Assembly (NCBI RefSeq): GCF_030244015.1
Contig: NZ_JASSYX010000003.1
Span: 496,001 to 560,000, forward strand
Reading direction: 5' to 3'
Length of the DNA: 64,000 nt
Source of the DNA: Pedobacter ginsengisoli
Lineage (GTDB): Bacteria > Bacteroidota > Bacteroidia > Sphingobacteriales > Sphingobacteriaceae
The position numbers and the translations under genes were made by a program. The notes beneath the pieces were generated by a model. It made no database searches. It saw only the letters and a list, made by a program, of their open reading frames with translations, and was not told the origin of the DNA. This document shows, in pieces, positions 7,512 through 61,494 of the stretch (within the stretch, counting starts at the first letter, position 1; every line of letters starts with the position of its first letter).

Positions 7512-8075
7512 TTATTCGCCCTTATCTTCTTTCGTTTCAGCAGCAGGCGCCTCAGGTGCAGCCTCTTCTTTCGCTGGAGTTTCTTCAGCAATCTCTTCTA
7601 CTTTTGCTTCAGCCACCTTTTCTGCTTTAGCAGCAGGAGCGTCAGATTTCTTAGCTTTGCTTCTGCCTCTACGAGTACTTTTCTTTTCAGCAGATGCAGC
7701 TTCACTACCGTAAACTTCGTTATAGTCTACAAGCTCGATTAATGCCATCTCCGCGTTATCACCTAAACGATTGTTTAATTTGATAATCCTGGTGTAACCA
7801 CCCGGGCGATTTGCAACCTTAGCAGCAATATCACGGAACAATTCAGTAACGGTTTCTTTATCCTGTAAGTAACCAAATACTATACGGCGGGAATGCGTCG
7901 TATCAGTTTTTGATTTTGTGATGATTGGCTCAACATAAGTACGCAACGCTTTAGCTTTAGCCAAAGTAGTTGAAATTCTTTTATGTTTAATTAATGACGA
8001 AGCCATATTAGCCAGCATCGCTTTACGATGTGAATCTGTTCTTCCTAAGTGATTTATTTTTTTACCGTGTCTCAT
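7512..8075 (-). CDS. rplQ: 50S ribosomal protein L17
   Basis: 187 residues. The first ~120 ([20 protein letters not shown] onward) are the conserved L17 core that lines the polypeptide exit side of the large subunit. Residues from about 130 on form a low-complexity tail, first basic ([13 protein letters not shown]) and then rich in Ala, Glu and Pro, and make it about 60-70 residues longer than E. coli L17. It is the last gene of the minus-strand ribosomal cluster, 87 bp after rpoA. The leader contains an 8-bp inverted repeat. Confidence 0.97.
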
Positions 8076-47960: not shown

Positions 47961-48650
47961 TTATAGGTATCCGCCGCTCTTCAAAATCTCGGCCCATAGC
48001 TGATAACCTTCAGAAATCAGGTGTAATCCATCTTTTGTCAAATTGGCTTTTAAATGATTGTTTTCATCCAAAAACTTAGGATAAAGATCAATAATTGTCA
48101 CCTTTTTGGCGCTAAGTTTTCTGATCTGATCGTTCAGCCACAGGATATGCTCATCCTTCCCGTAGTGGTTTTTAAACTTGCCGAAACTGCTGTTTACAGG
48201 CAGCAGGGTATAGAAATAAATCTCAGTACGTTTTGAGCCAGACCTTATCCTGTCGATAATCCGCTTATAATTTCTCAGGATCAGGCTGTCAGGAATGTTT
48301 CTTGAAATGTCGTTAATGCCTATCAAAACAAATACTTTGGCCGGCTTGCGGGCTATAACTTCATCAAGCCTTTCCAGAACACCAAAGGTAATGTCCCCGG
48401 AAATACCCCTGTTCTTTGCCTTGGGGAGATTTAAAAGTTTGGCCCAGTCAGTCCCGGCGGTGATGCTGTTTCCCAAAAAGACAATGTCTTTTTTTGATTT
48501 TGTTTCGGCCATAAATTTAGTGACCTGCTCTTTGTATTTTCCTGGCCTGTAAGTACTGTCCCATTTTACTTCCTGCGCCTTTAGTTGCACCACGACAGTG
48601 GTGAAAAAGAAGACCAGTATTACTTTGATTAGGTTTAACGGATATTTCAT
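47961..48650 (-). CDS. Exported SGNH/GDSL-family hydrolase
   Basis: 229 residues with a signal peptide (about 1-25, ending LKAQE). The four SGNH blocks are complete: Ser62 in FLGNSITAG, the Gly of block II in RGISGD, Asn113 in IGIND, and Asp207/His210 in KDGLHL. The sequence resembles the lysophospholipase L1 / PAF-acetylhydrolase-like group. It lies 46 bp downstream of glpT on the same strand, so it may be the last gene of the glycerophosphodiester locus and could deacylate lipids or sugars. The substrate is inferred only. Confidence 0.85.
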   Translation of the reverse strand: MKYPLNLIKVILVFFFTTVVVQLKAQEVKWDSTYRPGKYKEQVTKFMAETKSKKDIVFLGNSITAGTDWAKLLNLPKAKNRGISGDITFGVLERLDEVIARKPAKVFVLIGINDISRNIPDSLILRNYKRIIDRIRSGSKRTEIYFYTLLPVNSSFGKFKNHYGKDEHILWLNDQIRKLSAKKVTIIDLYPKFLDENNHLKANLTKDGLHLISEGYQLWAEILKSGGYL

Positions 48651-48696: not shown

Positions 48697-50031
48697 CTAG
48701 GCATCCAGCAGATTTCTCTTTTCCCTGTTCCAGGTTAGTGCGGTAAAGAACACCGCAAGAACGCAGGCTGCAACAATCACCTCAAAACCGCCGTCCCAAC
48801 CCCATTTATCCACAACAAGACCGATAGCGATATTTGCGAATAAGGCACCGCCCATGTATCCAAACAAACCGGTCAGCCCTGCAGCTGTTCCCGCTGCTTT
48901 TTTGGGTACGAGATCAAGTGCCTGAACTCCGATAAGCATTACCGGGCCGTAAATTAGAAAGCCAATAGCGATCAGGGCGGTGTTATCTATCCAGACATTT
49001 CCGGGGGGATTTTTCCAGTAAACAAGTACTGCCACAAGTACCAGCACCATATATATAACGGTAGCCGGAGCCCGGCGGCCTTTGAAAACCTTATCGCTGA
49101 TCAACCCGCAAAGTAAAGTCCCTGGGATACCCGCATATTCATATAGGAAGTATGCCCAGCCCGACTCTTTTAGCGAGAAGCCTTTCACTTCTTCCAAAAA
49201 AGTTGGCGCCCAATCCAGAATGCCATACCTTACCAGGTAGACAAAAGCATTCGCGAATGCGATATACCACAACATCCTGTTGTTGAATACATATTTGAGA
49301 AAGATCTCTTTGGCTGAAAGCTCTTTTTCCTGGTCAGCAGAGTAGTTCCTGGGATAGTCGTTCTTATGGGCCTCGATAGGGGGCAACCCGCAGGATTGCG
49401 GGGTATCTCTGATGAGCAGGAACCCAATCAATGCAAAGACGAGGGCAATCATTCCGGGAAAATAGAACTTACTGTGCCAGTCTGAAAAGATCTCTATGGC
49501 TAAAATGGCTATCGGACCAACAAGTCCCCCGCCCACATTGTGCGCTACATTCCAAATGGACATCATTGTCCCGCGTTCTTTAACCGAATACCAATGCACA
49601 ACCACCCTGCCGCATGGCGGCCAGCCCATTCCCTGAAACCAGCCATTTAGGAACAATAGCAGAAACATCACAGCTATGGACGATGTTGCAAATGGAACTA
49701 CACCCATCAGGATCATGGTCAATGCGGAAAGCACCAGGCCTGCGGTAAGGAATGTGCGGGCGTTACTTCGGTCAGAGACATTGCCCATCAGGAATTTACT
49801 TAAACCGTAAGCGATGGACACACCAGACAAAGCAAAGCCCAACTGGGCCTTGTTAAAGCCCTGGTCAATCAGGTCGGGCATCGCCAATGAGAAATTTTTG
49901 CGTACGAGGTAATAGCCGGCATAGCCCAGAAAGATCCCCAGGAATACCTGGAGGCGAAGTTTCTTATATTCAGGGTCGATCTTGCTTATGGACAAAAGTT
50001 CCCTGTGGGCTGCTGGAGAAAAGAATTTCAT
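48697..50031 (-). CDS. glpT: Glycerol-3-phosphate transporter (MFS, organophosphate:Pi antiporter)
   Basis: 444 residues with 12 transmembrane segments. The organophosphate antiporter signatures are clear: [29 protein letters not shown] in TM1, [18 protein letters not shown], and [20 protein letters not shown]. It fits GlpT better than UhpT given the adjacent glycerophosphodiesterase and nearby glpD. It would exchange periplasmic glycerol-3-phosphate for cytoplasmic phosphate. The gap to the GDPD gene upstream is 53 bp. Confidence 0.9.
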
Positions 50032-50084: not shown

Positions 50085-50987
50085 TTAGTTGACCAGCAGG
50101 TCTGGATAATCAGAGATGATGCCGTCAACTTTCAGTTGTTTCAGCTTATCAACGTCTTCTTTAGTATTGGGTGTCCAGGGAATTACTTTTACATTTCGCG
50201 CATGACATTTCTTGACCAGTTCCTCATTGACCATTTTATATTCGGTACTCAGGATGAAGGGGTCAAAACCAAGATCACTCAGGTTTTCTTCCACAGTCTT
50301 TTGATTATTTACCAGAAAGGATGTCCTGACATTTGGATATTTCATATGCAGAATCTGTAAAGTTCTTTTATCAAAAGACTGGATGACTACAAAAGGGCTG
50401 ATCCCTTTTTTTTCGATCACATCCATTAAAAGTTTGACAAAGGTCTCCGGATCCGGATTGGTAACACCATCACCTTTAGGGCTGCATTTGGTTTCAATAT
50501 TGTAAAACATTTGCTTTTTACTCCTGGTATAAGTCTGTACCGAATCAATCAGGTCAGCTAAACGTGGTATATAAGTCTTTATTTTTTTCTGCTTCGGGAA
50601 ACCTGTAAGCGGCTTGGTACCGATGTCAAAAGTTTTCAATAAAGAATAGTCCATTTGGTATACTGGATATTTTTTGGAGTCCGCGGCTGGTATTTCCTTA
50701 CCTTCCGGAGTCAGCATAAAACCAGCACTCAGATAATCATCGTGGGTAACGACCACTTCTCCGTCTTTGGTGATATGGGTATCCATTTCCAGAGTGGTAA
50801 CGCCGATGTCCACAGCATTTTTCATAGCAATTATGGTATTTTCCGGCATTAAACCCCTGCCGCCCCTATGGGCTTCAGTACTAAATGCCGGAAACTTCAC
50901 AACTGCTCCCCGGTTTGCTTTATTGATGGTTTTACAAGCAGACAGACCCACCAGGGCAAGGGCCGCTACACCAATTAAATTCTTCAT
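50085..50987 (-). CDS. glpQ: Glycerophosphodiester phosphodiesterase, lipoprotein
   Basis: 300 residues. A lipoprotein signal has its lipobox LSAC with Cys18. The GDPD catalytic residues are present: His40-Arg41 in EAHRGGRGLMPENT, Glu67 and Asp69 in LEMDTHITKDGEVVVTHDD, and His82. It hydrolyses deacylated phospholipids such as glycerophosphocholine to glycerol-3-phosphate and an alcohol. As an anchored periplasmic protein it would feed GlpT, encoded next. It lies 19 bp after the metallophosphoesterase gene. Confidence 0.92.
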   Translation of the reverse strand: MKNLIGVAALALVGLSACKTINKANRGAVVKFPAFSTEAHRGGRGLMPENTIIAMKNAVDIGVTTLEMDTHITKDGEVVVTHDDYLSAGFMLTPEGKEIPAADSKKYPVYQMDYSLLKTFDIGTKPLTGFPKQKKIKTYIPRLADLIDSVQTYTRSKKQMFYNIETKCSPKGDGVTNPDPETFVKLLMDVIEKKGISPFVVIQSFDKRTLQILHMKYPNVRTSFLVNNQKTVEENLSDLGFDPFILSTEYKMVNEELVKKCHARNVKVIPWTPNTKEDVDKLKQLKVDGIISDYPDLLVN

Positions 50988-51006: not shown

Positions 51007-52419
51007 TTACGCATCTATTGCAGCCGTATATTTTTCTCCAAAACAATCTGTTGCTATCACTTTGATTTTTTTCGGTCCCGGTTTGAAATGTGCCATAAAC
51101 AAGTGGTCCATCATTTTGGGTTCCGGAAAAGATCTGCCCGCAGGCATTTTATCTCCTTTATAGAGTTCTACCGATAACGGATCAAAACCTTTCTGCTGCT
51201 GGAGCAAACCCATAGGCTTGTCGTCCAAAAAATACTCCACTTTCCATTCGGGATCCCAGTTCCAGACATTTGCAATTATCCTCTTCTGATCGGTCAGCGT
51301 ATCTGCATAGAGACTGATCTGTCTGGTCCTCTCCAAACCCGTTGATTTGTAATACCATTTAAGATCAGTACCGTCTACTTCATATACACCATATCCCCTT
51401 GGTGTACCATCTTCGCAGATCGGTCCGGTCCACCACGCGCCGCAAACGGCTCCATGGTTGTGTTCATAAATCCCATTTGTGATCTTGTTGACGTTGTAAT
51501 GGGTATGACCGGACATGATGTGCACGTTTTTATAACCGGTCAGCAAAGCATATAAAGCACTGTTGTTTTTAACGGCATTGTGAACCGGGATATGCAGGTT
51601 AATGACCAGCAGCTGATCTTTTCCCACATGCTCCAGGTCCTTTTCCAGCCAGCTGAGCTGATCTTCGGAGATATAGCCGTCGTAAGTACGCTCCACGCCC
51701 AGGTACCTCACATCATCCAATACTACATAATGCGCTTTCCCGCGGTTAAAAGAGTAATAGGTCGGCCCATAAGTGGCTTTAAAAGTTTTGTCAGAGGTTT
51801 CATCTCCTCCCTGCCTGTAGTCCATATCATGGTTGCCTAAAGCCTGGAAAAACGGAATTCCCATTTTTGCCACAGCTTCGTTGTAATCCGGAAACAAAGC
51901 ATGGTTGTCCCATACAATATCTCCAACACAGATGCCGTGCACCAGAGCATTGGACCCGAGCCTACCGATCAGCTGCTGTACATCGGGAACTGCAGTTTCC
52001 ATCATTTGCTGTACATCTTTTTTATTTTTAACCTGTGGGTCTGCCCAGATAATAAAATGGTGCTTACTATCGTCTTTTTTGAGGCGGGTAAGCCTAAAAT
52101 CATACTCGTTACGGCTGCCCAGTGTTTCGTATTGGCGGGTTACGTTATAATCTGTTTTAAATTCGTAACCTGAAGGCGTACTCATAAATATATTGGTAGC
52201 TTTCGGATCTGTGGAGATGGTATAGCTGCCTTTGGCATCGGTGACAACCACCGAATATCCGTCAGAAATCACCACGTTTGCCACTCCTCGTTTTCCATCG
52301 GTTACGCGGCCTTTTATCGTATTGGTTCTCTGCAGACCTGAAAAAGCGTTGCTCTGCAGGCTGATAAATGCACCTCCGGTAATGAGGCCGGCTTTTTTTA
52401 TAAAGGATCTTCTGTTCAT
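51007..52419 (-). CDS. Exported calcineurin-like metallophosphoesterase
   Basis: 470 residues. A Tat-like signal (NRRSFIKKAGLITGG) leads into an N-terminal CarboxypepD/Metallophos_N beta-sandwich (34-112), the catalytic domain (about 119-330) and a C-terminal Metallophos_C-like domain. The metal motifs are DPQ at 127-129 in place of DxH, GD at 166-167 with DN at 171-172, GNHD at 195-198, His276 and GHTH at 304-307. The DPQ variant is also known in CSTP1-like enzymes. The phosphoester it cleaves is unknown; the context suggests a headgroup or glycerophosphoester. A hairpin lies just upstream. Confidence 0.88.
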   Translation of the reverse strand: MNRRSFIKKAGLITGGAFISLQSNAFSGLQRTNTIKGRVTDGKRGVANVVISDGYSVVVTDAKGSYTISTDPKATNIFMSTPSGYEFKTDYNVTRQYETLGSRNEYDFRLTRLKKDDSKHHFIIWADPQVKNKKDVQQMMETAVPDVQQLIGRLGSNALVHGICVGDIVWDNHALFPDYNEAVAKMGIPFFQALGNHDMDYRQGGDETSDKTFKATYGPTYYSFNRGKAHYVVLDDVRYLGVERTYDGYISEDQLSWLEKDLEHVGKDQLLVINLHIPVHNAVKNNSALYALLTGYKNVHIMSGHTHYNVNKITNGIYEHNHGAVCGAWWTGPICEDGTPRGYGVYEVDGTDLKWYYKSTGLERTRQISLYADTLTDQKRIIANVWNWDPEWKVEYFLDDKPMGLLQQQKGFDPLSVELYKGDKMPAGRSFPEPKMMDHLFMAHFKPGPKKIKVIATDCFGEKYTAAIDA

Positions 52420-52497: not shown

Positions 52498-54051
52498 TTA
52501 ATTGGTGAGTATGGTTACCTCTCCATTCTCAATAGCTGATAATGGTGTATCCATGGCCATCTGGAAGAATACATGTGCTCTTGGTGTCACCCAGGTTTTA
52601 GTTGTTGCATTAAACACACCTCCAAGCTTGGTGAATTTTCCAAGATCAGCAGGGTTTTGGTGTGGAATTACATATAGATTTGTTCCCTGATAAAAGAAGG
52701 GCTGCGCTGTTGAGGTAGCTGGATCTACAGGGTTATAATGGTCGTTTTCCGGAATGCGGTAGCCATTGTTATTAGTTTCATCATAGATTGTAGTTTTTCC
52801 CGTACCACCAAAGAAAACCGCATCAACAGGGACAGACTCCTCAGCCACATTAATTCCTTCAAATATAGCAATGCCGCCAGCATTACCGCTATTTGGTAGC
52901 AAGCCTCCGCTTTTTGCACCAAAGCCATCACCGTCGTTTGTTACATAAGCGATGCTTCTTATCCATTTGGCGTCGCTGATCAGCGTAGAGTTTGGTCCGT
53001 TTATCCGTTTATTGCTTCCGCCGACATAGAAAAATTCGCCCTTGGTCACCGATCCTGAAGTCAGATTAAATTTATATGTCCTTCCTCCTCCGGTAGCCCA
53101 TCCGCCTGCCGGAGCAGTACCAGCGTAAGGCGCAGCGCTACCCGCATTGGTACAGGTAACTACAGCCATCGGTGTCTTTTCAAAATCTATATCCCTTGTT
53201 GCAAGAAACTGAAAGTATTCGTAATTGCCATCTCCACCTTTTGCATCGCTAACAAAACCGGTAATGATAACTGGGAATTTGCCCAGCTGCGGTCCGTTTG
53301 GATCCACCGGAGCCACGCGGTCAGTAATATCCGCACCGGTCCGTGGCCATACCTGAACAACAGGAACACCAGCACTTGTTTGACCCATCATTAAAATTCC
53401 GGTAAATGTCGCAGTTGCAGGGACTTCGGCATCAGCAAAACTTGCGGCAGGTTCCGTGTGCAGTATCACGCTGTCAGCACCGTTTACCACACTTTTATCT
53501 CCTGCAAAAGTATCGCCGATTGCCGGCATAGGATTAATCGTTCCTGCAGTTATTTTAACAAGCGTGCTTTCAAAATCACCGGGTTTTAGATTAATGCTGT
53601 AACTGGAGGTCGACTGGATATTCATCCTGTTTCCTTCTGATATTTTTTTGATTGATGTGGCCGTAAGCCCTTTGATCTGAAGGGCGCCATTAACTTTGGT
53701 CAGTGTCTTTCCTTCAATTTCAATCAGAAGAGAATCACCAGGTTTATAATCAGAGGTATTGTCAAGGCTGAGTATTATCCCCCTGATTTTACTTCTTCTG
53801 GTACTTTGTAGCACCACAATACCAGCAGGAACATTCCCTGAATCCGGATTGGAAATCACTATTCCTGAAATTTGATAGGCTCCCATCAGGCTGTTTCGGT
53901 CTAGAATAAAATCTGTGCCCTTATATAAACCCCGTACATCTTCTAAGGAAGTGATCGGGCTCAAGGTACCTGCTGCATAATCATGCTTTTTGCATGCAGA
54001 CCAGATAACTGTCGTGCAGAACAGTAGGAAATATAATAATCTTGTTTTCAT
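52498..54051 (-). CDS. DUF5689 domain lipoprotein
   Basis: 517 residues, with a lipobox ending WSAC and Cys20. Residues about 38-235 fit DUF5689, a beta-rich domain often encoded directly after SusC/SusD in this phylum (GLYKGTDFILDRNSLMGAYQISGIVISNPDSGNVPAGIVVLQ). The rest is Gly/Asn-rich beta sequence without a known catalytic motif. It is probably surface-exposed with SusD and aids substrate capture; this is inference. It lies 34 bp after susD. Confidence 0.75.
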   Translation of the reverse strand: MKTRLLYFLLFCTTVIWSACKKHDYAAGTLSPITSLEDVRGLYKGTDFILDRNSLMGAYQISGIVISNPDSGNVPAGIVVLQSTRRSKIRGIILSLDNTSDYKPGDSLLIEIEGKTLTKVNGALQIKGLTATSIKKISEGNRMNIQSTSSYSINLKPGDFESTLVKITAGTINPMPAIGDTFAGDKSVVNGADSVILHTEPAASFADAEVPATATFTGILMMGQTSAGVPVVQVWPRTGADITDRVAPVDPNGPQLGKFPVIITGFVSDAKGGDGNYEYFQFLATRDIDFEKTPMAVVTCTNAGSAAPYAGTAPAGGWATGGGRTYKFNLTSGSVTKGEFFYVGGSNKRINGPNSTLISDAKWIRSIAYVTNDGDGFGAKSGGLLPNSGNAGGIAIFEGINVAEESVPVDAVFFGGTGKTTIYDETNNNGYRIPENDHYNPVDPATSTAQPFFYQGTNLYVIPHQNPADLGKFTKLGGVFNATTKTWVTPRAHVFFQMAMDTPLSAIENGEVTILTN

Positions 54052-54085: not shown

Positions 54086-55540
54086 TTAAGGTCTTTGCCA
54101 CCAAACCAAAGTATTAATATTATCCGGGCCCTGAGCAGCAACTGCGGCCCTGTAATTATTTCCATTGGCCGCCTGAACATATACAGGATAGGTAAGCCTT
54201 GCCGGCATTACACCTCCGTTGCCCAGTCCAGCGCCTTTGGGAAGGGTAGGATAGCCTGTACGGCGGTATTCAAACCATTGCTCCATACCAGTGAAGAACA
54301 TCGCATAATACTTTTGAATATGAATAAGCTCCATTTTCTGCTCCATGGTATAATTATCATCCCATTTTACTTTTTCAAAAGTCAGGTAATTGGCGGGAAC
54401 AGTATATCCCCAAAAGGTAATGCCATTTGTTGCCCCGGTTTCATAATAGGTTTTAGCAGGATTTGCAGCGATCCATCCTTTTATCGCTGCCTCAGTAAGT
54501 ATTAGCTGCAGTTCACTATAGTTCATAATATTACCTAGCAGCGGTTCTGTCATCAAGGCCACAGGAAAAGCAGATTTACCTTCCGGGGCCTGTCCCACAG
54601 GATAGCCACTTGGAATCCCTTCATAGTCGCCCTGGTATAAAGAAGCCCACCTCTGGATTCTTGGATCGCTCCTCTCATTTAGATTATCGACAAAAAAGCT
54701 GGATAACTTAGGTCCGTACCAATCCCCATCCCGCCAGGTTGCAAAAGGAGAAACATATGGCGCGGTGCCGGTCCACCTCAAAACAGCTGAATCATCATTG
54801 CTGGTCATTATTGGATATTCAGTAGCTTTCGTGTCAACGATCTCCTTGATCTTTTGTATAACCGGAAGCTCTGCTTTTGAGGACACCCTTAATAACAGTC
54901 TTAAAAACAATGAATTACCAAACTTCCTCCATTTTTCACGGGATCCTGCATAGATCGGATCGCTGGCAGAAGCGATAGCGTTCGCAGTGGAGTTTGCCGG
55001 TTTCAACAACGTGTTCGCATTCTCCAGCATCTGGAAAATTCCATCATATATATCTTTTTGCTGGTCAAACTTTGGTGTAAAATTCCCCTCTTTTGCTTTA
55101 TTGGATTCCGTAAATGGCACATCGCCATAAGTGTCCGTTAGCATTGAATATATCCAAGCCTGACATATCAGTGAAATTGCCTGGTAGGAGGGGTTTAATA
55201 TATCTTCCCCCCCCTGGTAGATGTCCTTAAAATTGGTAAGCTGCGTATACCATTCATTCCATAGATAATCTGCCTCAGCAGTCCGCACTTCGTACCGAAA
55301 GATCTTTCCTTCGGTATCACCCATGTTTACAGTAACCTGCATCAGTTCATTGTTTACCCGCTGACTGCGGCTCATATTTGCGATGACCACATTAGCCAGC
55401 GCGGGAGCAAGAAGCGATTTAGGCAAAACTTTTTCCTGTGTATTAGGATTGGTGTTAATCTCCTGAAAATCTTTCTTACACGAACTTGTTATAATGGATA
55501 AGCCCAGTGCCATTATAGCTATATATTTAGTCTTTTTCAT
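54086..55540 (-). CDS. SusD/RagB family outer-membrane lipoprotein
   Basis: 484 residues, lipobox ITSSC with Cys21, then KKDFQEINTNPNTQEKV, the start typical of the SusD-like_2 branch. It has TPR-like helices (ISLICQAWIYSMLTDTYGDVPFTES) and a C-terminal FTGMEQWFEYRRTGYPTLPKG. SusD proteins form the lid of the SusC transporter and bind the substrate outside the cell. It lies 11 bp after susC. The SusD-like_2 branch is often tied to substrates other than starch. Confidence 0.93.
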   Translation of the reverse strand: MKKTKYIAIMALGLSIITSSCKKDFQEINTNPNTQEKVLPKSLLAPALANVVIANMSRSQRVNNELMQVTVNMGDTEGKIFRYEVRTAEADYLWNEWYTQLTNFKDIYQGGEDILNPSYQAISLICQAWIYSMLTDTYGDVPFTESNKAKEGNFTPKFDQQKDIYDGIFQMLENANTLLKPANSTANAIASASDPIYAGSREKWRKFGNSLFLRLLLRVSSKAELPVIQKIKEIVDTKATEYPIMTSNDDSAVLRWTGTAPYVSPFATWRDGDWYGPKLSSFFVDNLNERSDPRIQRWASLYQGDYEGIPSGYPVGQAPEGKSAFPVALMTEPLLGNIMNYSELQLILTEAAIKGWIAANPAKTYYETGATNGITFWGYTVPANYLTFEKVKWDDNYTMEQKMELIHIQKYYAMFFTGMEQWFEYRRTGYPTLPKGAGLGNGGVMPARLTYPVYVQAANGNNYRAAVAAQGPDNINTLVWWQRP

Positions 55541-55551
55541 TATTTTTTTAG

Positions 55552-58500
55552 TTAGATGCCGATTACCAAATTCAAACCGAATGATCTTGTAGAAGGAAAT
55601 TGTCCATACTCAAAACCTTTATTAATCTCTGCGCCGCTCAATGTTCCGAATTCCGGATCGAAGACAGGCCATTTTGTCACCGTGAACAAGTCTCTGCCAT
55701 ATACCCCGATAGTGGCACGCTGCAATCCAAGCCGGCTAGCGATTTTCGGCGTAAAAGTGTAATCAAGTCTCACTTCCCTCAGTTTTAGAAAGTCGGTTGA
55801 GTAGGTCGTTCCTTCGACATTATCACGTCCATAATGTGCTGTATAATAGGTCCAGGCATCCCGTCCTATTACGTCATTTGGACGAAACGTCCCATCCGAA
55901 TTTTTCTGTACGCCGTTGCCGATAATTCCATTGTAACGGCCGGGCAGCGTATTCACTGTTTTGCCTTGTTCGGCAAGTGCCGCAGCTGACAATGAGTAGG
56001 CTTCTGCACCATATTGGGCATCCAGCAGGAAATTCACAGATATTTGCTTGTATTTGAATGTATTGCCAATGCTGGCCTTCCATTGTGGGTTGGTATTTCC
56101 AATATACATCATGTCACTGGTGATCATCGGATAACCATTGGTGTCATAGATGATCTGTCCCTCCGGCGATCTCTGGTACGCCCGGCCATATAGATCACCC
56201 ATACTTCCGCCAACTTTTGCGATGATTGAACCCCTGCTCCCGGGACCATTCTGAAGTATTAGGCCCTCTTCAAGTTCTGAAGGGAGTTCCACGACATTAT
56301 TTTGGTTTGCTGCGAATGTTCCAAAGATGTTCCAGTTGAATCCGGTCTCGCTTTTAAATGGTGATCCGTTTAAGGCGACCTCTATACCGCTGTTGGTGAT
56401 CATACCTGCATTGACCACCGCTCTTCTCCTGCCTGATGAAGCATCAACGATGGTAGACAGTATTTGGTTCTTTGTGTTTCCCGAATAGTAGGTGATGTCT
56501 GCTCCAATCCTGTTGTTAAAAAAATGCAGGTCAGCCCCAAATTCATAACTAGTTGTAAATAGGGATTCTAAGTTTGGATTAGCCAGAGTAGTAGAATTTG
56601 CCGCCCCGCCAGGAAACTGAGGAAGATAGGTATAAGTATCAGATGTTAAATAAGCCTCGGTTCCGCCGCTTCCTACTCCAGAAACTGACGCCCGGAGTTT
56701 TGCATAGGAAATGGACTTAGGCAATTCAAAAAGTTCTGAAAGAATGATACTTCCGTTCAAAGATGGATAAAAGAACCCGGTTCTTCCGGTTCCTAGTGGA
56801 GAAGCGAGGGCACTGTTCCAATCCCATCGGGCTGTTGCGTCCAGAAACAGGAAGTCTTTATAGGCCCCTGTAAACAAGCCATAAAAGCTGTTCAAGGCGT
56901 ACTTACTCTTGTAGGGAATGGCCAGAATTAGCCCTGCAGCATTGGCATGCTTAAAGATGCCTGGATATGCTAGTGAATCTGATCTGAGGTCATCCCGAAT
57001 ATAACGGTTACTGGTCATGCTTCCGCCACCTGTTGCGCTTACGGTAAAATCCTGATTTAATTTTTTATTGTACCGCAACAGGAAATCACTTGTCACCTCT
57101 TGTGAAAAGATGTTTTGGGTACGGTACATTCCTTTATTAAACTTTTCCGTATCATATGGCCGCTGCTGAGAACGCTGGTCCTGTGCGAAATCAAGTGATG
57201 TTCTCAGCATTACGCTTAGCTCTTTTGTGAAATTGTAGGTTGCCTGAACATTGCCTGTAATCCCGTTCCGGTTAGATTTGTTCAGCATCTGATTGGCAAT
57301 CAAATATGGATTGTCAGGGAAAGAGCTAAATGGATAACTTTGTTTTATGTTTTCCTGGCCTGGTAACCAGTAATCTTTTAGCCAGTCGATATTGGCACTC
57401 GGTTCCCAGAAGAGGTACCAGTACATTATCGACTGGTTGTTATATCCTGTTGATGGTAAATTATCACTCCATTTATTGGTATAATTTACTTTAGCAGCAA
57501 TCTGAAGCTTGTCATTAACCTGTTGGCTTACTGAGAGCGCCACGGTATTCCGCTTATAACCCGTATTTGGAATGATCCACGAATTATTTACATTGGTCGC
57601 AGAAAAACGCGCTGTTGTTTTTTCACTCCCGCCATCTACGGTTACACTATTGGTAAACGTTTTCCCTGTCTCAAAGAAGCGTCTTGAATCGTTTACATAT
57701 GGAACCCATGGGGTTCTTACCGTTGCTTTCGTATGGGTAACCGGATCATATTGGTAATATTCCTGCCCGTTGAATTTTGGTCCCCATGCAGAACTTGTAC
57801 TTCTTGTACTTGATCCGTCTTCTGATGCATTGTAGGAATAATAGTTATCACCTTCTACACCCTGACCATATTCGTATTGAAGGTCGGGCCAGCGATTTAC
57901 ATTTTCTATCATAGAATTAGATGTAACGGTAACGCCTACCCCCTTTTGCTTATGTTTACCAGACTTGGTAGTGATAATTACGGCCCCATTTGCGCCACGC
58001 TGACCATAAAGGGCGGCAGCTCCCGGACCTTTAAGAACGGTTACATTTTCAATATCCTCTGGGTTGATGTCCCCAAGGCCGCTACCAAAATCTACCGGGG
58101 TCTCTTCTGCAAGGTAACCCGAACCGCCATATCCTGTAGCACGGCCGCTTCCCTGATTGATAATTACACCATCTACAACAATAAGCGCATCATTATTTCC
58201 GGTCAGATTATTCTCACCTCTAAGGATAATTTTATTAGATCCGCCGGGTCCTCCATTAGACCTTACCAGGTTCAGACCAGCAATTTTGCCGGATAGCGCA
58301 TCTGTCCAGTTATTGGACAACGCGCCGGTGAGCTGTTCGCCCTTTACTGTAGTGGTTGAATATCCTAATGCCCTCTCTTCACGTTTGATACCTAAAGCCG
58401 TTACCACTACTTCATTCAATTGATTATTTGCAGCATTCAGCCTGATGTTTACATTACTCTGATTGTTTGATGCCGTATGCTTTACAACTGCATAGCCCAC

Positions 58501-58806
58501 CATGTTAAAAGACAGCTCCGCTCCTTTCTCTGCGATAACTGTGAAGTTTCCATCGGCGTTGGTCACACCCAATACTCTACGCTCATTGTCTGTAACGGTA
58601 ACTCCGGGTAAAGGCTGATTGTCAGCTCCGTCTCTTACTGTCCCCTTCACGGTAACCCTTTCCTGAAAAGCAACGTTACCGAAGGCTGCAACTGGCGCGG
58701 CCTCAAGTATCTGGGGCGACTGCGTAAAGGCTAATGCACATGCAAAAAGCACGTACCCGGAGACCCTCTTCGCCCGCATGTAATTGGTAAAATTTTTTCT
58801 CATCAT
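55552..58806 (-). CDS. SusC/RagA family TonB-linked outer-membrane transporter
   Basis: 1084 residues; the start is the ATG at 58806 or the next codon at 58803. A signal peptide (about 1-37) is followed by a CarboxypepD-like domain (about 50-130, ending ELSFNMVGYAVVKH), the plug (about 133-285, ALGIKREERALGYSTTTVKGEQL to VLKGPGAAALYGQRGANGAVIITTKSGK) and a 22-strand barrel. It imports a solute across the outer membrane using TonB energy. It is cotranscribed with susD, and the genes downstream (GDPD, GlpT) suggest glycerophospho-compounds. Its 105-bp upstream gap carries TTTCGTTT motifs. Confidence 0.95.
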   Translation of the reverse strand: MMRKNFTNYMRAKRVSGYVLFACALAFTQSPQILEAAPVAAFGNVAFQERVTVKGTVRDGADNQPLPGVTVTDNERRVLGVTNADGNFTVIAEKGAELSFNMVGYAVVKHTASNNQSNVNIRLNAANNQLNEVVVTALGIKREERALGYSTTTVKGEQLTGALSNNWTDALSGKIAGLNLVRSNGGPGGSNKIILRGENNLTGNNDALIVVDGVIINQGSGRATGYGGSGYLAEETPVDFGSGLGDINPEDIENVTVLKGPGAAALYGQRGANGAVIITTKSGKHKQKGVGVTVTSNSMIENVNRWPDLQYEYGQGVEGDNYYSYNASEDGSSTRSTSSAWGPKFNGQEYYQYDPVTHTKATVRTPWVPYVNDSRRFFETGKTFTNSVTVDGGSEKTTARFSATNVNNSWIIPNTGYKRNTVALSVSQQVNDKLQIAAKVNYTNKWSDNLPSTGYNNQSIMYWYLFWEPSANIDWLKDYWLPGQENIKQSYPFSSFPDNPYLIANQMLNKSNRNGITGNVQATYNFTKELSVMLRTSLDFAQDQRSQQRPYDTEKFNKGMYRTQNIFSQEVTSDFLLRYNKKLNQDFTVSATGGGSMTSNRYIRDDLRSDSLAYPGIFKHANAAGLILAIPYKSKYALNSFYGLFTGAYKDFLFLDATARWDWNSALASPLGTGRTGFFYPSLNGSIILSELFELPKSISYAKLRASVSGVGSGGTEAYLTSDTYTYLPQFPGGAANSTTLANPNLESLFTTSYEFGADLHFFNNRIGADITYYSGNTKNQILSTIVDASSGRRRAVVNAGMITNSGIEVALNGSPFKSETGFNWNIFGTFAANQNNVVELPSELEEGLILQNGPGSRGSIIAKVGGSMGDLYGRAYQRSPEGQIIYDTNGYPMITSDMMYIGNTNPQWKASIGNTFKYKQISVNFLLDAQYGAEAYSLSAAALAEQGKTVNTLPGRYNGIIGNGVQKNSDGTFRPNDVIGRDAWTYYTAHYGRDNVEGTTYSTDFLKLREVRLDYTFTPKIASRLGLQRATIGVYGRDLFTVTKWPVFDPEFGTLSGAEINKGFEYGQFPSTRSFGLNLVIGI

Positions 58807-58832
58807 ACTATTTATTTATTTGGTTTTTTTGG

Positions 58833-58870
58833 TTCGTTCGCATTGCGGAATTTCGTTTCATTTCGATTTT
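58833..58870. promoter_or_regulatory. TTTCGTTT operator-like cluster upstream of susC
   Basis: Within 38 bp are GTTCGTTCG (58832-58840), TTTCGTTT (58851-58858) and ATTTCGATT (58860-58868). The 8-mer TTTCGTTT also occurs at 60528 and 60570, and inverted at 60596, in the glpD-regulator gap. A candidate -7 element (GATATTTG on minus, 58881-58888, one mismatch) lies just upstream, so a bound protein would block transcription of susC. Confidence 0.5.
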
Positions 58871-58911
58871 ATTTTTTCCGCAAATATCCAGTTTGCAGTA
58901 TTAAGCTATTG

Positions 58912-60528
58912 TTATGTCTCCGTTAAATTGATCTTCATTGAATAATGTCGGATCTCATCATCGTTGCCTAACAACAGGTATTGCTTTACCAGATCTGTAA
59001 AACTGCTGATCTGTGCCTCAATCCACTGGCCATCCCTGCCCAGCTCGTTTGCCATTATAACGGCAACTGCCGGAGCCACTTTTAAGGCAGCTCTTGCATC
59101 GAGAAAGAGGAGGCGCATTCTCCTGGAGATCACATCTTCAACATTCCGGGCCATTTCATTTCTCACCATCCAGACTACTTCAGCCTTTACATAATTATAT
59201 TCCGGGTGGACCGGGATTCTTAATTCCGGCTCTGCCTTCATTAAATCTTGAATACCTGCGGCATCAGCCCCATACAGGGCCAGCGGTCCGGTTTGCATTT
59301 CCGGGGTATAACCATGGATTTTAACGTCCGCCGTGATACATTTTTCCTTTTTCAGCTTACCCAGCGCTATGGCCTGGTCAACCACATCCATAGCCATTTT
59401 TCTGTAGGTAGTCCATTTACCACCTGTTATGGTAATCAGGCCGGACTGACTAATGATCAGCTTATGGCTTCTCGAAATTTCCTTAGTGCTGTTGGTGTCT
59501 TTTTGCGGAGCAGCCAGCGGCCTTAACCCGGCAAAGGCTGAAAGCACATCCGCCCTGGTTGGTTTTCTCACCAGATAATTCCCGGCGGTCTCCAATATAA
59601 ATTCAATCTCATTTTCCAGCGGCCGGGGCTCCAGGCTATGCTCATCCAGGGGCGTATCCGTAGTTCCCACAAGCACCTTTCCATGCCATGGGGCCGCAAA
59701 CAGCACACGCCCGTCTGAAGTCTTTGGAATCATCAGTGCACTATCACCCTGCAGAAAAGACTGGTCGAGTACAATATGGGCACCCTGGCTTGGCCTTACA
59801 ATTGGCCTGCTCGCGGGCGTATCCATTTTCAGTATGTCATCCACAAATACACCCGTTGCATTTACAATGACTTCTGCCTGCAGCTGATAGGCTTCGCCGC
59901 TTTCCATATCAACGACATCCACCCCGTCAACCCCTCCGTTTTTTTTGGTCAGACCGGTTACTTTCATATAATTTAACAGGACACCACCATACTCCGACGC
60001 AGTCTGTGCAAGATTTAAAGCAAGGCGAGCGTCATCAAACTGGCCGTCACTATAACTTATCCCACCCCTCAGGGCTCGTCGTTTCAAGCCTGGGATTGCA
60101 CCTAAAACTTTATCTGCGGAAAGCAGGGAAGAACTCTTAAATCCACTTTTCCCGGCCAGGAGATCATATAGTTTTAAGCCGATTAAATATTTAATTTTTG
60201 AAAACCAGGAATAGCATGGAATAATGAATTCCTGGTCCTTTACCAGGTGCGGCGCATTTTTCAACAACAAACCACGTTCATGAAGTGCTTCATAAACCAA
60301 TGCAACATCACCCTGGGCCAGATACCTTACGCCGCCATGCACAAGTTTTGTGCTTCTGCTCGAAGTGCCTTTAGCAAAGTCGGATTGCTCCAGCAGAAGC
60401 GTTTTGTACCCCCGTGAAGCAGCATCTACCGCAGTACCCAAACCTGTAGCACCGCCGCCGATAATAATTACATCCCATTTAGCCTGTTCCTTTACCCTTG
60501 CTATAAATATATCCCTGTCAAATAACAT
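58912..60528 (-). CDS. glpD: Glycerol-3-phosphate dehydrogenase (FAD, aerobic)
   Basis: 538 residues from the ATG at 60528 (MLFDRDIFIARVKEQ). A TTG five codons upstream is less likely. The FAD-binding motif is VIIIGGGATGLGTAVDAASRG, followed by SRSTKLVHGGVRYL, with a C-terminal DAO_C helical domain (AEVVWMVRNEMARNVEDVISRRMRL). It oxidises glycerol-3-phosphate to DHAP at the inner face of the cytoplasmic membrane and passes electrons to quinone. It heads the minus-strand locus, with susC 105 bp downstream and the GlpR-type regulator divergent upstream. Confidence 0.95.
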   Translation of the reverse strand: MLFDRDIFIARVKEQAKWDVIIIGGGATGLGTAVDAASRGYKTLLLEQSDFAKGTSSRSTKLVHGGVRYLAQGDVALVYEALHERGLLLKNAPHLVKDQEFIIPCYSWFSKIKYLIGLKLYDLLAGKSGFKSSSLLSADKVLGAIPGLKRRALRGGISYSDGQFDDARLALNLAQTASEYGGVLLNYMKVTGLTKKNGGVDGVDVVDMESGEAYQLQAEVIVNATGVFVDDILKMDTPASRPIVRPSQGAHIVLDQSFLQGDSALMIPKTSDGRVLFAAPWHGKVLVGTTDTPLDEHSLEPRPLENEIEFILETAGNYLVRKPTRADVLSAFAGLRPLAAPQKDTNSTKEISRSHKLIISQSGLITITGGKWTTYRKMAMDVVDQAIALGKLKKEKCITADVKIHGYTPEMQTGPLALYGADAAGIQDLMKAEPELRIPVHPEYNYVKAEVVWMVRNEMARNVEDVISRRMRLLFLDARAALKVAPAVAVIMANELGRDGQWIEAQISSFTDLVKQYLLLGNDDEIRHYSMKINLTET

Positions 60529-60603
60529 TTCGTTTGTTTTCAATCCAACCTATGTATAATTTCATAAACTTTCGTTTATAATCAAATAAACAACAAAACG
60601 AAA
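60528..60603. promoter_or_regulatory. GlpR-type operator candidates at glpD
   Basis: TTTCGTTT occurs at 60528-60535, overlapping the glpD start codon, and at 60570-60577. The inverse AAACGAAA at 60596-60603 forms with the second copy a 34-bp palindrome with an 18-bp spacer. The palindrome sits at and just downstream of the predicted transcription start of glpD, the expected place for a DeoR-family repressor. Confidence 0.55.
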
Positions 60604-60604
60604 C

Positions 60605-60634
60605 TAAACATAATTTTTATATAATAAAAACAAA
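60605..60634 (-). promoter_or_regulatory. Promoter of glpD
   Basis: On the minus strand TTTG-N18-TATGTTTA: the -33 box is exact and the -7 box has one mismatch to TAnnTTTG. The predicted start site falls within the AAACGAAA operator half-site. Confidence 0.6.
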
Positions 60635-60729: not shown

Positions 60730-61494
60730 ATGATCAGTATAGCCGAAAGACATCAATATATTTTAAATAAAATCCAGGTAAACGGATCACTGGACGTTCA
60801 GGGGTTATGTAAGGAATTAGATGTTTCATCTGTTACAATCCGTAAGGATCTGAAACTTCTCGAAGACAAAAATCTGCTATACAGAACTCATGGTGGCGCA
60901 ACCCTCAACAATCCTTATACTGTCGACCGTCCAGTGAATGAAAAAGAACACCTTCAGTCCGATGAGAAGATGAGGATCGGTGCTTTAGGAGCAGAACTGA
61001 TAGAAGACAACGATTCAGTCATTATAGCATCAGGGACTACTGTTCTTGCGCTGGCGAGATGCATCAGGCCCAAAGGGAACCTAACCGTGATCACCTCCGC
61101 GCTCAACGTCGCGCTGGAACTCGTACACAACACCAATATCGAAGTGATACAACTTGGGGGATTGCTAAGAAGAAGCTCTTCATCGGTTACAGGCCCATAC
61201 TCCGATAATGTTTTAAGCAGCGTTTTTTGCAGCAAGCTCTTTCTGGGTGTGGACGGAATCGACCTTGAATTTGGGCTAACCACAACAAATGCATTTGAAG
61301 CGCATCTAAACAGGCAAATGATCGCTTCTTCTCAAAAGATAATTGTGCTCGCTGATTCGACGAAGTTTGGCAAACGGGGGTTTGGCAAAATCTGTGGCAT
61401 TGAGGAAGTTGACCATATCATCACCGACCAGGGTGTATCTGACCATACCATTAAAACACTGGAAAGCCTTGGGATTAAAATTTCTATAATTTAG
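60730..61494 (+). CDS. DeoR/GlpR family transcriptional regulator
   Basis: 254 residues. The N-terminal DeoR helix-turn-helix (IAERHQYILNKIQVNGSLDVQGLCKELDVSSVTIRKDLKLLEDKNLLYRTHGGA) is followed by the DeoRC sensor domain, a phosphosugar-isomerase-like fold with ASGTTVLALAR, LFLGVDGIDLEFGLTT and KIIVLADSTKFGKRGF. DeoR-family sensors bind phosphorylated metabolites; GlpR responds to glycerol-3-phosphate. Its divergent position to glpD makes it the likely local repressor. Confidence 0.88.
   Translation: MISIAERHQYILNKIQVNGSLDVQGLCKELDVSSVTIRKDLKLLEDKNLLYRTHGGATLNNPYTVDRPVNEKEHLQSDEKMRIGALGAELIEDNDSVIIASGTTVLALARCIRPKGNLTVITSALNVALELVHNTNIEVIQLGGLLRRSSSSVTGPYSDNVLSSVFCSKLFLGVDGIDLEFGLTTTNAFEAHLNRQMIASSQKIIVLADSTKFGKRGFGKICGIEEVDHIITDQGVSDHTIKTLESLGIKISII

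Follow-up and report, generated by a model that had tools for sequence, protein, structure and literature searches.

The closest described counterparts of the circuit considered here are the GlpR systems of Pseudomonas and Escherichia coli. Pseudomonas GlpR controls glpD and also glpF and glpK (PMC6922529), while E. coli GlpR uses several operators in each of its known operons and ceases to repress when its ligand, glycerol-3-phosphate (G3P), is bound (PMC7567609). Motifs composed of two imperfect direct repeats with a periodicity of 10–11 bp have been described for another DeoR-family protein, RhaR (PMC3870299). On the transport side, Flavobacterium has PusCD loci, in which SusCD-like pairs lie in clusters with genes for phosphodiesterases and phosphomonoesterases (PMC8115612). 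SusR, hybrid two-component systems, and ECF sigma factors are the regulators usually considered for the SusCD systems of Bacteroidota (PMC3878776). We found no description of a GlpR/DeoR operator for Bacteroidota or Pedobacter in the open-access literature.

The locus analyzed here lies in a 64-kb stretch (the window; G000:C3:496001-560000) of the 4.83-Mb genome of a Pedobacter-like bacterium from soil. It resembles the GlpR-glp regulon of E. coli and Pseudomonas in that a putative DeoR-family repressor is located beside glp genes, with glpD as a predicted target. Unlike that regulon, its predicted targets include a SusCD outer-membrane pair together with a glycerophosphodiester phosphodiesterase (GDPD) and GlpT, and its putative operators, unlike those of E. 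coli or Pseudomonas GlpR, are 10-bp direct repeats of YGAAA. Direct repeats of 10–11 bp are shared with RhaR, although the RhaR pathway differs and each RhaR group has a half-site sequence of its own (PMC3870299). The PusCD loci are induced by phosphate depletion (PMC8115612), whereas the DeoR regulator, glpD, and GlpT point to control by G3P in the present case; the main text of PMC8115612 makes no mention of GlpT, GDPD, or glycerol-3-phosphate. The parts of the locus are of known kinds, and their combination seems to be undescribed in the open-access literature. A metabolite-sensing repressor of the DeoR type above a SusCD operon would represent a less usual wiring.

Gene content of the locus and the class of its regulator

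The glpD gene (58912–60528, minus strand; start codon 60528–60526) encodes an aerobic-type glycerol-3-phosphate dehydrogenase with the Pfam domains DAO and DAO_C, for which the best NCBIfam model, PRK12266, gave 295.4 bits, below its cut-off of 360. The other GlpD proteins of the close clade are about 70–79% identical to this one. Behind glpD, and on the same strand throughout, follow the genes for a SusC-type TonB-dependent transporter (55552–58806; TIGR04056, 566.6 bits, above cut-off), a SusD-like surface lipoprotein (54086–55540; Pfam SusD-like_2), a DUF5689 lipoprotein (52498–54051; Pfam PF18942), a calcineurin-like metallophosphoesterase (51007–52419; Pfam MetallophosN/C), GDPD (50085–50987; Pfam GDPD, 118.3 bits), the G3P transporter GlpT (48697–50031; TIGR00712 glpT, 728.6 bits against a curated cut-off of 632.55), and a GDSL-type esterase (47961–48650; Pfam Lipase_GDSL_2), which is possibly the final gene of the locus. 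The adjacent susC and susD genes mark this as a SusC/SusD-type uptake locus, and relatives repeat the order from glpD and susC through to the GDSL gene, wholly or in part. We read the locus as one that takes up glycerophosphodiesters, frees sn-glycerol-3-phosphate, and imports and oxidizes it; given this gene content, repression that responds to G3P is the natural reading. For one SusCD pair, this would point to glycerophosphodiesters (phospholipid head-groups) as the likely class of substrate. To our knowledge, most SusCD pairs have no known substrate.

Divergent from glpD, as in most orthologs, is the gene for a 254-aa GlpR/AgaR-like regulator (60730–61494, plus strand). Its Pfam domains, HTH_DeoR (57.5 bits, cut-off 21) and DeoRC (163 bits, cut-off 31.8), place it in the DeoR family. 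The nearest named relatives of the protein are from P. psychroterrae (93%) and P. metabolipauper (91%), both Pedobacter, and an ortholog was present in 124 of 145 genus genomes. The original prediction had called the regulator DeoR/GlpR-type. With the model for E. coli-type GlpR (NCBIfam PRK10906) it reached 120.5 bits against a cut-off of 331, and the top NCBIfam model was that of AgaR, the N-acetylgalactosamine repressor (241.9 bits, short of the cut-off of 260). AgaR operators are likewise runs of TTTCRTTT-like words. Although AgaR is the nearest model, the score stays below its cut-off and the gene context is one of G3P metabolism; no aga (GalNAc/GalN) genes were recognized among the window neighbors examined. 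(The AgaR treated in PMC4694137 is a GntR/HutC-type protein of streptococci and was set aside as not comparable.) Across genomes, the regulator gene adjoins glpD, glpK, or GDPD: it faces glpK in one species (L092), and in a number of genomes from Pedobacter and Pontibacter GDPD lies opposite or beside it. These surroundings, adjacent to and co-conserved with the regulator, are those expected of a protein with GlpR function (glpD, glpK, GDPD, glpT), and G3P is the denominator common to every partner gene of the regulator. As regards role, the GlpR label is backed by glpD, GDPD, GlpT, and, in relatives, a glpK beside the regulator; as regards the protein model, the GlpR cut-off is missed and AgaR lies nearer. 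The regulator is GlpR-like in role and a member of the DeoR family in class.

Phased YGAAA repeats upstream of glpD and susC

The control regions of glpD and susC had been linked through an 8-mer, TTTCGTTT, reported at 58851, 60528, and 60570 and inverted at 60596. All four copies were confirmed, the first three on the plus strand and the last on the minus strand; the remaining two copies in the window are at 7530 and 11605. It is correct that a single copy means little, since the six copies in the window compare with 4.7 expected and 32 of 100 shuffles reached six. The claim that the clustering is the signal was borne out as well: four copies fall in the two gaps where 0.18 would be expected, a count reached by 0 of 20,000 dinucleotide shuffles, although this test is optimistic because the word was picked after looking, and the case rests on independent conservation. 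Exact 8-mer pair patterns were discarded as a genome-wide signal because they are too unspecific, the control being as frequent as the signal (TTTCGTTT-N18-AAACGAAA has one occurrence in the 4.83-Mb genome and the reversed control pattern has two sites).

The original prediction had been made to depend on conservation in the orthologous gaps. Footprinting of these gaps found three sites, which we call A, B, and D, highly conserved, the opposite of a motif lost among relatives. Site A (60594–60612, minus strand; core AGTTTCGTTT in the sense orientation at 60605–60596) is located on or just after the predicted glpD transcription start (~60604) and is the most conserved 10-bp window of the gap, with a mean pairwise identity of 0.988 (rank 1 of 192) among 17 close species, that of the window included. 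Beyond the close clade, 18 of 24 gaps from the family contain the word TTTCG[TA]TT, where shuffles lead one to expect 2.3. Site B (60556–60578, minus strand; sense TAAACGAAAGTTTATGAAATTAT) consists of the half-sites CGAAA (60574–60570) and TGAAA (60564–60560), 10 bp apart. The latter (TTTCA at 60560–60564), absent from the earlier list, belongs to the 60570 site as its conserved second half. The identity of the B block (sense AAACGAAAGTTTAYGAAAT) was 0.878, third of 183 windows, with the windows ranking above it overlapping the surroundings of site A; the rest of the gap had an identity of 0.534. B is inverted relative to A and 26 bp away, and the A-B distance is 25–27 bp in 17 of 17 close species; judged by eye, L093, a more distant relative, has a distance of 15, approximately one helical turn shorter. 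The pair at 60570–60603, which had been described as a palindrome at the predicted glpD start, stands as far as the inverted arrangement at or just after that start is concerned, but B extends to 60560 and is larger than the 8-mer. From their conservation and layout, A and B are in all likelihood operators. An RNA hairpin formed by the A/B palindrome was rejected, since the predicted folds were weak and inconsistent between species.

At susC, the half-sites of site D (58849–58869, minus strand; sense AAATCGAAATGAAACGAAATT) are CGAAA at 58865–58861 and 58855–58851, about +12 to +26 from the predicted susC start. The strings at 58851 and 58860, previously listed apart, are real but form two halves of this one site. 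The other TTCG-type strings, at 58833 and 60683, are equally real, but the orthologous gaps do not conserve them and we rejected them as operators. The GAAA-N6-GAAA of site D is retained in the window and in 17 close relatives, and in close relatives sense TCGAAATGAAACGAAATG or a close variant comes after a -7 element of the GATATTTG type. In the window, the -7 element predicted for the promoter of susC, GATATTTG (consensus TAnnTTTG; PMC6847099), lies at 58881–58888 on the minus strand and is conserved in orthologs. Three species seemed to be without D; they carry extra sequence before susC, and D is present further upstream. We consider D a probable operator, less certain than A and B because of a short ORF and an inverted repeat that coincide with it and because of its survival in G237 (see below). 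A possible third site in the glpD gap, C (60525–60545, minus strand; sense TTGAAAACAAACGAAATG), contains TGAAA-N5-CGAAA, and its end falls within the start codon of glpD. CGAA precedes the ATG in most close-clade species, and the site ranks only 21 of 193 windows; it could equally be an operator or translation-start context. The TTTCGTTT copy at 60528 includes the first base of the glpD ATG and was dropped as an independent operator because it is inseparable from the start-codon context.

Sites B and D have the motif [CT]GAAA-N5-[CT]GAAA, with half-sites exactly 10 bp apart, in common with the tandem sites found in distant relatives. The 8-mer that had been proposed as the motif is real, but the functional unit is this larger one. 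Same-strand YGAAA pairs at 10 bp were present in 16 of 17 close Pedobacter gaps and in 12 of 26 gaps outside Pedobacter, where ~0.1 would be expected; these counts come from related species and are hence non-independent, and no other short spacing comes near. Lesser peaks were seen at 20–22 bp. The signal was weaker in a family sample without the close clade (3/24 at 10 bp and 4/24 at 11 bp). At the sequence level, the spike at exactly 10 bp agrees with the direct-repeat layout of DeoR-family operators (10–11 bp). It also offers a testable operator code for a DeoR regulator that has orthologs in Pontibacter, Rufibacter, Niastella, and Flavobacteriaceae.

The genome-wide motif scan that had been suggested as a check was carried out with R1, a sequence-only covariance model built from 25 B and D sites. 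The best matches in the window's own genome were site B at glpD (19.7 bits) and site D at susC (19.2 bits), followed by the next at 12.8 bits; since the genome's own B and D sites are in R1, the top ranks are partly by construction, and the emptiness elsewhere is the new information. Over 144 genus genomes, nearly all matches above 19 bits were glpD or susC sites.

Conservation, the 10-bp grammar, and the scan thus support the predicted operators, with the exception of the unconserved strings at 58833 and 60683 and the ambiguous copy at 60528. The adjoining DeoR-type repressor very probably docks at the shared motif, which is conserved in many species. In the circuit that we propose, which draws its direct support from how well the sites are conserved, from their spacing grammar and near-uniqueness in the genome, and from gene content, the TTTCGTTT words would be half-sites of the regulator's operators, each operator being a direct repeat that spans one helical turn. 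A and B would act as oppositely oriented sites at or just after the predicted glpD start, and D just after the predicted susC start. When inducer is lacking, the bound regulator would block the transcription of glpD and of susCD-DUF5689-metallophosphoesterase-GDPD-glpT-GDSL. Once glycerophosphodiesters are brought in and cleaved, sn-glycerol-3-phosphate would enter via GlpT and bind the sugar-phosphate domain of the regulator, which would then be released. We infer binding by this regulator, repression over activation, G3P as the ligand, the operon structure, and the transcription starts, and we regard the full circuit, with A, B, and D bound, glpD and susC-to-GDSL repressed, and release by G3P, as likely.

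Site D and the susC leader

An upstream ORF of 17 codons (MKRNSAMRTNQKNQINK, then stop; 58808–58861, minus strand) starts inside site D and ends 1 base before susC, and similar MKRN... frames are found in most relatives. This conserved small ORF overlapping D may explain part of the conservation of D. In an alternative reading, A and B are operators while D is conserved mainly as the start of the leader ORF and C is translation-start context, so that the likeness of the two gaps would partly reflect convergence on A-rich CGAAATG start contexts. Nearly every species does have ATG AAA CGA AAT in D, and the spacing to the predicted start would suit translation; CGAAATG abuts the glpD start codon too, and the spacer TGAAA is nearly invariant in D, unlike in B. 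However, L088, where the frame is broken and ATGAAATAA is found at this position, retains TGAAA-N5-CGAAA, and in L073 the peptide differs while the 10-bp repeat of GAAA is retained. Site B, moreover, follows the same grammar with no conserved ORF, and both CGAA-ATG contexts have G at -3, where the favorable base is A (PMC6847099). The genome itself is without another strong D-like site. While the persistence of D in a genome that lacks the regulator (G237, see below) would agree with conservation as a leader, we judge this reading to be unlikely and prefer D as an operator.

In addition, an inverted repeat, TTGCGGAA...TTCCGCAA at 58835–58885, surrounds site D. In an alignment of orthologous susC leaders (A2), 91% of the cells of this repeat are paired and two pairs are changed on both sides, and its covariation score exceeded those of all 500 shuffles and all slid controls. 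The left arm of the repeat overlaps the predicted -7 element, which makes an RNA hairpin doubtful because the repeat would not be transcribed in full if the start site follows the usual rule (G at -5; PMC6847099). D might be used doubly, as a repressor site and for a translated leader peptide inside the covarying inverted repeat (in relatives, TTTGCAGCA...TGCTGCAAA), to control the susCD-GDPD-GlpT operon. We rate this proposal as rather improbable; if true, such two-layer control would explain how D outlived the loss of the regulator.

TTAA words spaced ~10–11 bp apart were observed upstream of the susC -7 element (58890–58930, minus strand, and in the susC promoters of L063-L085) and likewise upstream of GDPD where GDPD faces the regulator. 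These repeats are perhaps an activator site. Speaking against the proposed circuit, no clear operator was found in the gap where the regulator directly faces GDPD.

Relatives with altered arrangements

In L083-L085, glpD is gone, susC is divergent from the regulator, and site D is still present, which favors the proposed circuit. A-like (GTTTCGTTTTGTTT) and B-like (CGAAAGTTAACGAAG) elements persist in the regulator-susC gap of these loci despite the absence of glpD. In ten relatives the regulator has no adjoining glpD, and another glpD (~60% identical) is found near glpK elsewhere. The nine readable unlinked glpD-glpK loci have phased [CT]GAAA repeats upstream of the glpD start (e.g., TGAAAGTAAATGAAACTATTTGAAAG), a further point in favor of the circuit. 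No DeoR gene turned up when the available flanks of such loci were searched by tblastn with the regulator as query.

G237 (L173/L184) is a natural loss experiment: glpD and susCD are retained, the regulator and A/B are lost, and D is almost intact. A and B had been contiguous with the lost regulator. That D is kept where only distant DeoR paralogs are present, and that the genome of the window encodes a second DeoR protein (30% identity), would suit another factor, such as a DeoR paralog, binding the sites while the neighboring regulator acts elsewhere. Against this, several families of Bacteroidota have the operators in the divergent gap of the regulator itself, and no matching A/B pair was found at the glpD genes of genomes without the regulator; we consider another factor very unlikely. 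Chance, i.e., a functionless motif in AT-rich gaps, fits the lack of window-wide enrichment of the 8-mer but is contradicted by the conservation, the spacing spike, and the genome scan, and can be dismissed.

Two minor observations concern the glp genes of relatives. The extended matches at L104 and L105 (glpD of G271 and G157) include one in-frame TAG, which may simply be the normal stop near the end. About 45–60 bp upstream of glpK in the close clade (L114-L128), a conserved TTTTACTTTCGATAATGATT is followed by TTATACTTACGT. The glpK promoter element of this clade, TTTCGATAATGATT, is related to the sites described above but differs from them, which counts against the circuit. It is similar to the second element seen in glpD promoters of distant relatives (TTTCGATTATGATT) and may represent a variant of the operator.
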